25,549 bases of DNA from a virus, in the IMG/VR virus record IMGVR_UViG_3300021185_003104, positions 1 to 25,549 of that record. The stretch is one strand, 5' to 3'. Shown here piece by piece: positions 9,655-24,709 of the stretch. Numbering within the stretch: position 1 is the first letter of the stretch; every line of letters begins with the position of its first letter. The notes below the pieces were generated by a model. That model saw nothing but the letters and a program-made list of their open reading frames with translations, had not been told where the DNA came from and searched no databases. The translations under genes were made by a program, and so were the position numbers.

Positions 9655-9864
9655 AATAAATCATCAACTAATGTTCTTGTACCAATAAAATTTGGTTTTA
9701 CAACACTTGGTATTACTGGAATAGTAACAGGACAGTTATTTAGAATTAATGATATACCAAAAAGATATGCTAAAAATGCTTTTCAAGTAACAAAAGTAGG
9801 ACATGAATTAACTGATGGTCTATGGAGAACAACCGTAGAAGGTACAATGAGGAACTTTGGATAA
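9634..9864 (+). pseudogene. baseplate hub protein, displaced C-terminal part
   Basis: This is the continuation of the hub gene in another frame. It encodes about 76 residues with FTTLGITGIVTGQLFRINDI, then KNAFQVTKVGHELTDGLWRT and TVEGTMRNFG. The pattern 'G..GI..G..f.id.iP.rY...aFqvtkv.H.l....W.Ttveg.mR' is a typical C-terminus of phage hub proteins. The only possible start is a TTG inside the repeat with no ribosome site, so independent translation is unlikely. It fuses exactly to the upstream part when one repeat copy is removed. Confidence 0.75.
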
Positions 9865-10352
9865 TGAGTAATATGATAGATAAATATGATAACCTAACTG
9901 GTTTTAAACAAAAATTTTCTAAGTTAGATGTAAAGACTCATTTTCCTAAATTAAATGAAAGTGATTATAATCGAGGATTTATTACTAGATATTTTGTACA
10001 AAAATCGAATGATACAAATTCGCCCATATATGAAATATCTTCATCATCATATTCAAGTTATAATAATAATCCATTTTTTATAGCATCTGCCGTTAGATGG
10101 AGAATAGTTGGACCTAAAGAAACAGTATATGATGAAGATGGGAGTATTGTTGATAAATCTGTCTCTGAATCAAATAGAATATCTATAAAATGGAGAATAG
10201 TTGGACCTAAAGAAACAGTATATGATGAAGATGGGAGTATTGTTGATAAATCTGTCTCTGAATCAAATAGAATATCTATAAATTTACAATCTAAAAAAAT
10301 TCCCAACCTAAAATTATATTTACCAAATTTATTACAATTTTACAAAAGTTAA
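9864..10352 (+). CDS. unrecognised tail/baseplate-region protein with 31-residue tandem repeat
   Basis: ATG 9864 overlaps the hub stop codon by one base (TAATG), indicating translational coupling. I prefer it to in-frame starts inside the hub gene. The product has 162 residues. Residues about 25-70 (YNRGFITRYFVQKSNDTNSP) look like a conserved structural segment, but I cannot name the family. A 93-bp exact tandem repeat doubles the segment WRIVGPKETVYDEDGSIVDK through SISIK. Without it the protein would be 131 residues. Position at the end of the baseplate operon suggests a virion or assembly role. Confidence 0.7.
   Translation: MSNMIDKYDNLTGFKQKFSKLDVKTHFPKLNESDYNRGFITRYFVQKSNDTNSPIYEISSSSYSSYNNNPFFIASAVRWRIVGPKETVYDEDGSIVDKSVSESNRISIKWRIVGPKETVYDEDGSIVDKSVSESNRISINLQSKKIPNLKLYLPNLLQFYKS
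10097..10282 (+). repeat. 93-bp in-frame tandem duplication
   Basis: Bases 10097-10189 and 10190-10282 are identical. The unit is 31 codons, so the frame is kept and the protein carries the 31-residue segment twice. Confidence 0.98.
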
Positions 10353-16258: not shown

Positions 16259-16870
16259 ATGAAATTATTTAAAATATTACTGCTCTCATGTATCATGTTC
16301 GGATGTGAAGCAGAACAAATCGTTGCACAAGACCTAAGAGAAGAGGTGATTGTTGAAAACCAAGTTTTTAAAGTTTGGTACAATGAAGTAAAAGAACAAC
16401 CAGTAAAATTGATTTATACATCTACTAATAGACCAAAAAATGTTGATAGAGGTTCAATGAACTTTTATAAAGAATCAGATTATCATACTTCAGACAATGC
16501 TGATTATTATGCAAATGTATGGGATAAAGGACATCTTGCTCCAGCAGCAACATATTCGGATTCTAAAGAAAATCTACGACAAACATTTTCGTTTTTAAAT
16601 TGTGCTCTACAAGACCAATATCTAAACAGAGGTGAGTGGAGATTATTAGAAGAACAAGAAAGAGAATGGGATGATGAACAAAATTTAAGAATTATAGTTG
16701 AACTAATTTGGGAAGATGGATATGAAATTCTACCATCAGGTGGACATATTCCAACTCATATGAGTAAAACAATTTACTTTGAAGAAGATGGAACTTGTAG
16801 AAAGTTTGTATTTCCAAATTCTTCACCAACACAAGGTTGGGAAGAATATGAGGTAGAGTGTACTAATTAA
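16259..16870 (+). CDS. secreted DNA/RNA non-specific endonuclease, probable lipoprotein
   Basis: The product has 203 residues. The N-terminus MKLFKILLLSCIMFGC has a positive start, a hydrophobic core and a lipobox-like MFGC (C16), so it is probably exported and possibly lipidated. The nuclease core follows the NUC/Serratia-nuclease pattern: ANVWDKGHLAPAATYS (DRGH-like, catalytic H92), then FSFLNCALQDQYLNRGEWRLLEE split as FLN (N114) and LNRGEW (metal-ligand N123), with E131. The catalytic Arg of DRGH is Lys. It would degrade nucleic acid outside the cytoplasm. Roles could be salvage, exclusion of competing phage DNA, or virion-associated activity. The context (fibre genes next) does not decide. 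Confidence 0.8.
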   Translation: MKLFKILLLSCIMFGCEAEQIVAQDLREEVIVENQVFKVWYNEVKEQPVKLIYTSTNRPKNVDRGSMNFYKESDYHTSDNADYYANVWDKGHLAPAATYSDSKENLRQTFSFLNCALQDQYLNRGEWRLLEEQEREWDDEQNLRIIVELIWEDGYEILPSGGHIPTHMSKTIYFEEDGTCRKFVFPNSSPTQGWEEYEVECTN

Positions 16871-20977: not shown

Positions 20978-21379
20978 ATGCAAACACAGTTACTTTGTAC
21001 ATTTACATCTAAGGCAGAGCTACAAGATACACTTCAACTTATTCGAGAAACATACCATATAGTTTATAACTATATTTATGTTCTGCAAAATAAGGGAAAC
21101 CTAGACGAGCTCTTTATTACCTATAATATAGATACATCTGTAAAACCAGATAGACCACTTCAGGATACTATTTTGGTTCATAGAAAGAAACAATCTAATA
21201 CTCTTTATACAATCAATGCACTTAACGAATTAGTTAAAGAAGAAAATAATGGTGTATTGGATAAAAAATTCTCAATAGATTGGACTAAATTTAAAAATTC
21301 AATAATTGTTACCAATGTAGAGGGAACAAAAAAGATTTCTACACGAATCTTCGAAGTGATAGAATTTAATCAAAAATAA
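20978..21379 (+). CDS. conserved-looking 133-residue protein, function unknown
   Basis: The product has 133 residues: MQTQLLCTFTSKAELQDTLQ at the N-terminus, an aromatic segment YHIVYNYIYVLQNKGNLDEL, and LYTINALNELVKEENNG near residue 80. The mixed alpha/beta pattern suggests a small globular protein. I have an impression of similar short proteins in other marine T4-like phages but cannot name a function. It is preceded by TATTTATA and followed by the methyltransferase after 30 bp. Confidence 0.7.
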   Translation: MQTQLLCTFTSKAELQDTLQLIRETYHIVYNYIYVLQNKGNLDELFITYNIDTSVKPDRPLQDTILVHRKKQSNTLYTINALNELVKEENNGVLDKKFSIDWTKFKNSIIVTNVEGTKKISTRIFEVIEFNQK

Positions 21380-23761: not shown

Positions 23762-23810
23762 ATTGTTAATAAGTAATCACAAAAATTCGGTGTTTTTTGG
23801 GGTTTCTTTA

Positions 23811-23818
23811 TATTTATA
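23811..23818 (+). promoter_or_regulatory. TATTTATA motif upstream of ssb (gp32-like)
   Basis: TATTTATA lies 81 bp before ATG 23900. A start of transcription shortly downstream would place the candidate pseudoknot (from 23827) at the very 5' end of the mRNA. Confidence 0.5.
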
Positions 23819-23826
23819 TATACACC

Positions 23827-23863
23827 GAGTGTTAATAAGTTTGGCACTCAAAACTTTAAACTT
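23827..23863 (+). promoter_or_regulatory. candidate H-type pseudoknot in the gp32-like mRNA leader
   Basis: Stem 1 is GAGTG 23827-23831 with CACTC 23845-23849. The loop segment AAGTTT 23837-23842 can pair with AAACTT at 23851-23856 or, with an 8-nt crossing loop, at 23858-23863. An unstructured A/U-rich stretch and AAGG follow before ATG 23900. T4 gene 32 mRNA has a leader pseudoknot followed by A/U-rich sequence that mediates autogenous repression by gp32. The same layout here suggests the same control. Inferred from base pairing only. Confidence 0.5.
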
Positions 23864-23899
23864 AAAAAATAAATTAATTAAAACTAAAAGGTAAAAATC

Positions 23900-24709
23900 A
23901 TGGCTTTAGACATTAACGCAATCAGAAGCAGACTGAACAAACTGCAAAACACACAAAGGAAATCAGATTCATTATGGAAACCAACACCTGGTAAACACCA
24001 AGTGAGAATCGTTCCTTACCAATTCGATAAAGATAACCCATTCATCGAATTGTACTTTCACTACAACATTAACAACAAAACTTACTTATCACCACAATCA
24101 TTTGGTAGACCAGACCCTATTGTAGAGTTTGCGGATAAACTAAAAAGAATGGGTGATAAAGATGATTGGAAAGCAGCGAAGGCTATGGAGCCTAAGTTGA
24201 GAACTTTTGTTCCTGTTATCGTAAGAGGAGAAGAAGGTGAAGGAGTAAGATTTTGGGGATTTGGTAAAACTGTATATCAAGAAATCTTAGGTTACATTGC
24301 TGACCCAGATTATGGAGATATTTCAGACCCAACAAGTGGTAGAGATTTAACAATCGAGTACAAATCAGCAGAAGAAGCTGGTACTACTTATCCAACTACT
24401 ACTATTAGAGTTAAACCATCAACTACACCAGTGAGTGAAGATACTGATAAAGTAACTCAATTTTTAGAATCACAAACTGAAATTACAGATTTATATTCTG
24501 AATTATCTTATGATGAATTAAAATCAGTATTAGAAGGTTGGTTAAACCCAAGTGGAGAAGGTGAGAAAGAAACTGTATCTCAATCTACCTTATCACAAAG
24601 TACCCCAGCTTCTAAACCAGTAGAATCTGCACCAACTACTACAACAGAATCTTCATCGAAGAAAACTGATGATGTAGCGGCTGCTTTTGATGATTTATTT
24701 AACAACTAA
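23900..24709 (+). CDS. gp32: single-stranded DNA-binding protein (T4 gp32-like)
   Basis: The product has 269 residues. The N-terminus (INAIRSRLNKLQNTQRKSDS) is a basic cooperativity-type segment. The OB core includes WKPTPGKHQVRIVPYQFD, then LYFHYNINNKTYLSPQSFGR, then VPVIVRGEEGEGVRFWGFGK. The C-terminus is a Ser/Thr-rich linker ending in the acidic tip DDVAAAFDDLFNN, which in T4 gp32 recruits replication and recombination partners. There is no cysteine in the whole protein, so the zinc ligands of T4 gp32 are absent. Where a CPxxxGxxCPIC-type knuckle might be expected, it reads LSPQSFGRPDPIVE. UvsX/RecA follows by 10 bp. The long leader has a candidate pseudoknot for autoregulation. Confidence 0.88.
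   Translation: MALDINAIRSRLNKLQNTQRKSDSLWKPTPGKHQVRIVPYQFDKDNPFIELYFHYNINNKTYLSPQSFGRPDPIVEFADKLKRMGDKDDWKAAKAMEPKLRTFVPVIVRGEEGEGVRFWGFGKTVYQEILGYIADPDYGDISDPTSGRDLTIEYKSAEEAGTTYPTTTIRVKPSTTPVSEDTDKVTQFLESQTEITDLYSELSYDELKSVLEGWLNPSGEGEKETVSQSTLSQSTPASKPVESAPTTTTESSSKKTDDVAAAFDDLFNN

Follow-up and report, generated by a model that had tools for sequence, protein, structure and literature searches.

We found that the leader of a gp32-like single-stranded DNA-binding protein (SSB) gene in a virus record of 25,549 nt, the whole of which we call the window, can fold into an H-type pseudoknot whose two stems abut with 0 nt between them (Table 1). We propose, with a probability of roughly 0.6, that an autogenous translational operator of the kind known from T4 gene 32 occupies the 5' end of this SSB mRNA. 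This proposal is supported because the pseudoknot is beyond chance, with the T4 leader as a positive control and 209 other leaders as a negative control, and because the element is restricted to the SSB gene, its structure is conserved, with co-variation mainly in stem 1, and the protein is a gp32 relative. The pseudoknot taken by itself is very probably a real RNA structure.

Table 1. Features of the SSB gene and its leader (positions in the window)
Feature	Position	Strand	Basis or remark
Imperfect inverted repeat next to the -10 element, separate from the pseudoknot	23771..23808	+	Mean z -2.3 in type A, -3.4 in type D
Probable promoter -10 element TATATTTATATATA	23809..23822	+	Motif recurs before other genes
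Pseudoknot stem 1 (S1), 5' strand GAGUGU	23827..23832	+	Scan; both-side changes among relatives
Pseudoknot loop 1 (L1), UAA	23833..23835	+	Scan
Pseudoknot stem 2 (S2), 5' strand UAAGUUUG	23836..23843	+	Core of six pairs kept by 12 of 13 distinct type A loops
Pseudoknot stem 1, 3' strand GCACUC	23844..23849	+	Scan and type A loop comparison
Pseudoknot loop 3 (L3), AAAACUU, unpaired, contains first AAACTT copy	23850..23856	+	Scan
Pseudoknot stem 2, 3' strand UAAACUUA, contains second AAACTT	23857..23864	+	Invariant in 20 type A/B rows
Unstructured A/U-rich stretch with UUAAUUAA	23865..23885	+	Resembles T4 stretch UUAAUUAAAUUAAAUUAAAAAGG
AAAAGG, weak Shine-Dalgarno-like site, 8 nt before AUG	23886..23891	+	Sequence
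SSB gene, gp32-like, 269 aa	23900..24709	+	Pfam, PHROG, fold

The pseudoknot scan sums nearest-neighbour stacking energies without loop entropies, and its energies are therefore crude. On this scale the window structure, with an S1 of 6 bp (final pair U.G), an L1 of 3 nt, an S2 of 8 bp (final pair G.U) and an L3 of 7 nt, reaches -19.4, and none of 3000 dinucleotide shuffles was as good. The identical scan recovered the known pseudoknot in the T4 gene 32 leader (-18.2; 0/300 shuffles as good), and of the 209 leaders that belong to other ORFs of the same contigs only 6 reached the weakest score of the leader classes A, B and E described below, 2 of them lying below -17. Nested RNA folding, to which pseudoknots are invisible, gave an unremarkable z of -0.61 for the leader, and the signal thus resides in the pseudoknot and its conservation.

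The first-pass annotation of this DNA had placed the pairing elements exactly (GAGTG at 23827-23831, AAGTTT at 23837-23842, CACTC at 23845-23849, AAACTT at 23851-23856 and 23858-23863), and the H-type pseudoknot that it proposed is confirmed in a stronger form, both stems being longer than it described and no shuffle matching them. It had also regarded both AAACTT copies as complements of AAGTTT; the second copy holds, and TAAACTTA is unchanged across the 20 type A/B rows. The first copy was rejected as the S2 partner, because a loop 3 of 1 nt would remain and because this copy varies in relatives (AAAATTT, AAAAATT, AAAACAT); loop 3 is A-rich in every relative and otherwise variable in sequence.

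Relatives were collected by SSB searches of IMG/VR and by one promoter-pattern scan, which together gave 194 unique leaders: 124 with an SSB identity of at least 60% and enough length to score, and 69 below 60%. We left out L029, whose contig end (1-90) repeats the SSB leader in inverted orientation and is probably an assembly artefact. Class counts were drawn from 107 leaders. Class A (33 unique leaders) resembles the window; class B (2) has S1 re-paired as GAUUCCU/GGGAAUC; class E (4) keeps the class A geometry with S1 AAGUGU/ACACUU or GAGUGU/ACACUU and S2 ACAGU/ACUGU, the latter extended to UUACAGU/ACUGUAA (7 bp) in L416. Classes C (51) and H (2 among the 107, 6 later) are shorter and carry a strong co-varying hairpin with A-GG-.. 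or A-AG-.. in its loop and CC or CU downstream. Class D (10 unique leaders) consists of close relatives with no hairpin, and five of the 107 leaders fall outside these classes. All 39 unique A/B/E leaders pass the pseudoknot scan (0/100 shuffles each for A and B, 0-2/100 for E), and failures dominate elsewhere, with passes in 3/51 of class C, where S2 has 2-3 bp at most, 0/10 of D and 0/2 of H. The scan finds a strong pseudoknot in 44 of the 124 unique leaders with an SSB identity of at least 60% and in none of the 69 below 60%. In leaders L192-L245 (SSB identity 50-57%), a TATACTTAT-like box is soon followed by a simple hairpin (ATCAAG..CTTGAT or GGTTACGAAAGTAAC) without a strong pseudoknot.

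The strong pseudoknot precedes the SSB gene only. In seven of eight large records the element pattern has one match per genome, always at the SSB gene, and the eighth record is a type D phage; a pattern of promoter plus ACACC found 73 new contigs, in 69 of which SSB lies downstream. Mapped on the SSB tree, the leader class switches 19 times (minimum 6), which indicates that leaders and genes have often been exchanged or re-made. The SSBs of L049 and L051 are identical across 235 tree residues and their leaders belong to classes D and A, respectively, so here the leader was exchanged separately from the gene.

The first-pass annotation had named conservation and covariation of the stems in relatives beforehand as the comparison on which the structure could fall, and when we ran it the pseudoknot was not refuted. 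Because MAFFT shifts the E stem by two columns when A/B and E are aligned together, E was parsed by structure and A/B was counted alone. Pairing in types A/B extends to 93.9% of cells and drops to 45% or less once the partner is slid; the rows here and below are related sequences. At two S1 pairs of these types both sides have changed (L039, L372); S2 is conserved, with one-side changes only and zero both-side changes. From class A to class E, S2 is replaced wholesale (ACAGU/ACUGU, up to 7 bp) with the geometry unchanged, a switch that represents one or a few events. When tails were swapped between A/B and E, S2 became weaker in most combinations (e.g., -10.0 to -3.4 for L416), the exception being the L014 loop, which pairs slightly better with the E tail. 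S1 of C/H shows both-side changes at five of its six pairs. The first S2 pair of C/H is G-C in 34 of 40 rows, A-U in 6 and unpaired in none, and the second is G-C in 38 rows, the two unpaired rows being 8-nt loops misplaced by MAFFT. Among 38 scorable rows the GG/CC to AG/CU change of this S2 has no counter-example, and the C/H covariation score is 0.433; shuffles give 0.153, and sliding leaves no more than 0.083. As read from these alignments, the both-side evidence for S2 is the wholesale A-to-E replacement and one C/H pair.

The protein encoded downstream also points to gene 32. It matches Pfam PF08804 (gp32) at 2e-12 and 48 bits (cut-off 26.8) and PHROG 1192 (ssDNA-binding protein) at 2.9e-21, and profile comparison with T4 gp32 aligned 146 columns at an E of 1.3e-4. 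A Foldseek search with an AlphaFold2 model (mean pLDDT 64) placed the RB69 and T4 gp32 cores (2a1k, 1gpc) as best matches, with probability 1.00 and E-values of 3e-8 and 8e-8; a PDB sequence search with a 7-row SSB profile gave no match, although the fold search did find gp32. The window SSB has no cysteines and ends in an acidic tip, FDDLFNN, and 107 of 108 SSB family members lack cysteine, which means that the zinc site of T4 gp32 is absent. A structural zinc site is a feature of T4 gp32 and not a requirement of PF08804. Judged by its sequence and modelled fold, the protein is a zinc-less gp32 relative, and the earlier description of it as such is borne out by Pfam, profile comparison and fold alike. 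The gene after SSB encodes a UvsX-like RecA, and among 84,980 species genomes of cellular organisms no SSB relative was found at the sensitivity of the scan. The host is probably a member of Bacteroidota, to judge from the TTTG/TAnnTTTG-like promoters.

The element TATATTTATA, a putative -10 element of this phage group, is located 20-45 nt before structural genes in the window and in large relatives; its sites in the window are at 100, 711 and 1743 (structural genes), 20940 (ORF at 20978) and 23809 (SSB). Since the last of these lies directly before the pseudoknot, the mRNA should begin with the knot, and we expect transcription to start near 23818-23824. We considered and rejected the idea that promoters of this class generally give a structured 5' end, because their other leaders are plain: downstream of the other TATATTTATA-type promoters of the window and large relatives there are mostly short plain leaders. 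The class, which serves structural genes and SSB, is reminiscent of the T4 late TATAAATA. A second promoter class in the window (12139, 22129, 22583 and 23369; TTGG..TCGTATATTTR, of host Bacteroidota type) stands before small, probably early genes. Downstream of the pseudoknot, which begins 73 nt upstream of the AUG, the stretch 23865-23902 has a fold energy of 0.0, and the A/U-rich track (AAAAATAAATTAATTAAAACTAAAAGG) carries UUAA(A) repeats as far as the ribosome site.

T4 gene 32 mRNA is controlled through an autogenous leader pseudoknot operator (PMC3014915, PMC535899), which according to a T4 review begins 67 nt before the AUG. The same scan describes it as an S1 of 4 bp, an L1 of 1 nt, an S2 of 7 bp, an L2 of 0 nt and an L3 of 5 nt, just upstream of the UUAAUUAAAUUAAAUUAAAAAGG track. 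The window leader shares with the T4/T2/RB69 operator the gp32-family SSB gene downstream, the H-type pseudoknot with 0 nt between the stems, and the UUAA(A)-rich unstructured leader that follows it and leads to an AAAAGG-type site. In S1/L1/S2/L2/L3 notation the geometry is 4/1/7/0/5 in T4, 6/3/8/0/7 in the window and 6/1/7/0/7 in L416. The differences from T4 are that no sequence likeness is visible by eye and the window stems are A/U-richer, that the protein has no zinc ligands, that the gene has a TATATTTATA promoter of its own, whose transcript probably begins with the window pseudoknot, and that relatives of the window swap several leader classes, some of them without a pseudoknot. The gene 43 (DNA polymerase) operator of T4/RB69 is comparable in being a leader hairpin of a replication protein that its product may bind; it differs in being a plain hairpin and not a pseudoknot (PMC3014915), the gene here being that of SSB. 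Searches of Rfam gave no match to the window leader (at the gathering score or with E up to 10) nor to eight relatives (at the gathering score). The preQ1-I and SAM-II riboswitches are small H-type pseudoknots with a short stem, an A-rich loop 3 and a short S2, like the C/H leaders; unlike these riboswitches, the window element has SSB and not metabolism as its gene context.

In the mechanism that we propose, transcription would start just upstream of the coaxial H-type pseudoknot, and when SSB is in excess over its single-stranded DNA ligand, a monomer would bind the pseudoknot. More SSB would then fill the unstructured A/U-rich leader cooperatively, with 23865..23885 as the track, across the AAAAGG site and the start codon, and the leader so filled would block the ribosome. 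We infer the transcription start, SSB binding, cooperativity and repression. The L049/L051 pair suggests, as far as sequences tell, that the same SSB copes with and without the element, and this pair and the hairpin-less type D leaders argue against a strict requirement for it.

The main rival is that the pseudoknot or hairpin is a 5'-end stabiliser that guards an abundant transcript from decay without SSB binding. A few nt separate the structure from the transcription start that we expect, T4 gene 32 mRNA is itself unusually stable (PMC3014915), and nearly all types have some hairpin despite varying loops and S2 strength, which a stabiliser could tolerate. Transcripts of the same promoter class, however, lack such a 5' structure, type D leaders manage without one, and a stabiliser would need no S2, yet S2 complementarity survives wholesale replacement; we regard this explanation as unlikely. 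Less probable again is that the leader is the target of another regulator, such as a phage RegA-like repressor, a host RNA-binding protein or a small molecule. The C/H loop letters (A-GG-A..G/C) and the conserved ACACC start do resemble recognition letters, but the element occurs at the SSB gene only, whereas RegA-type repressors act on many mRNAs, its geometry is kept between types while the sequence differs, and Rfam offers no matching family.

Two further explanations dispute the RNA structure itself. A nested-only program predicts for the window a simple 9-bp hairpin (GAGUGUUAA/UUGGCACUC), which, if it were the real structure, would make the AAACTT match accidental in A/T-rich sequence. 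We rejected this extended hairpin on conservation and consider it quite improbable, because its pairs 6-9 are complete in just 3 of 13 distinct type A hairpins and the six-pair S2 core is intact in 12, because shuffles do not match the pseudoknot, and because type E has a different S2 with the same geometry. That the conserved letters serve as promoter or operator sequence at the DNA level is the least probable explanation and very hard to sustain: the letters do adjoin the -10 element, which a CGGTG/CACCG inverted repeat flanks, but S1 arms change letters with pairing kept, G.U included, as is typical of RNA, and the CGGTG-to-CACCG spacing varies from about 27 to 44 nt between types (by eye), unlike that of a phased operator.

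As to the origin of the operator that we favour, the first-pass annotation had read the leader as a T4 gene 32-type autoregulatory one, with the control either kept or re-evolved. Layout, gene and location agree with that reading; 'kept' from a T4-like ancestor does not, because the pseudoknot is absent below 60% SSB identity, and 're-evolved' fits better. On this sequence evidence a separate origin is more probable than descent from a T4-like ancestor, since none of the 69 leaders of the more distant SSBs has a strong pseudoknot, in a sample that comprises no T4-like intermediates. To our knowledge, gene 32-type pseudoknot self-control was once thought to be unique to T4 and its kin, and the literature that we searched described no such leader beyond the T4 relatives. 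Our broader suggestion is tentative, and we put its chances at slightly short of even: a gp32-type autogenous pseudoknot operator would have arisen independently of T4 in a large uncultivated lineage, probably of Bacteroidota phages, and would have diversified there into four or more exchangeable classes of structured leader (strong pseudoknots that differ in S2, and minimal forms with an S2 of 2-3 bp) beside hairpin-less leaders; such self-control would be a recurrent gp32 solution, not a T4 oddity. A second lineage with the same geometry, unrelated-looking stems and a zinc-less protein would show whether gp32 proteins read shape, loop, A/U track or letters. Nature provides the variants A, B, C/H, D and E, some of them beside near-identical SSBs; as a set they lend themselves directly to tests of binding and repression, and they would supply the first curated family for a regulator class absent from Rfam.

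The inverted repeat at 23771-23808, examined in the window and in L007, L055, L094, L101 and L046, may not belong to the pseudoknot. Its arms vary between phages yet remain paired, hairpin-less type D leaders included. Its loop (23786-23793) contains CGGTG (23788-23792), which is complementary to CACCG (23823-23827) at the start of the pseudoknot; if transcribed from upstream, the repeat could form a second, overlapping pseudoknot with (C)ACCG, and otherwise it could be a DNA operator.

Elsewhere in the window, a 418-aa ORF at 13114-14370 matches family A DNA polymerase only in its C-terminal part (weak Pfam match, PHROG 17), and its sequence possibly represents a split or reduced polymerase. 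A DNA/RNA non-specific endonuclease (PF01223) with a lipoprotein-like signal sequence is encoded at 16259-16870, within the phage structural region, and the ORF at 9822-10352 has an internal tandem duplication of about 30 residues, in which WRIVGPKETVYDEDGSIVDKSVSESNRISI occurs twice.
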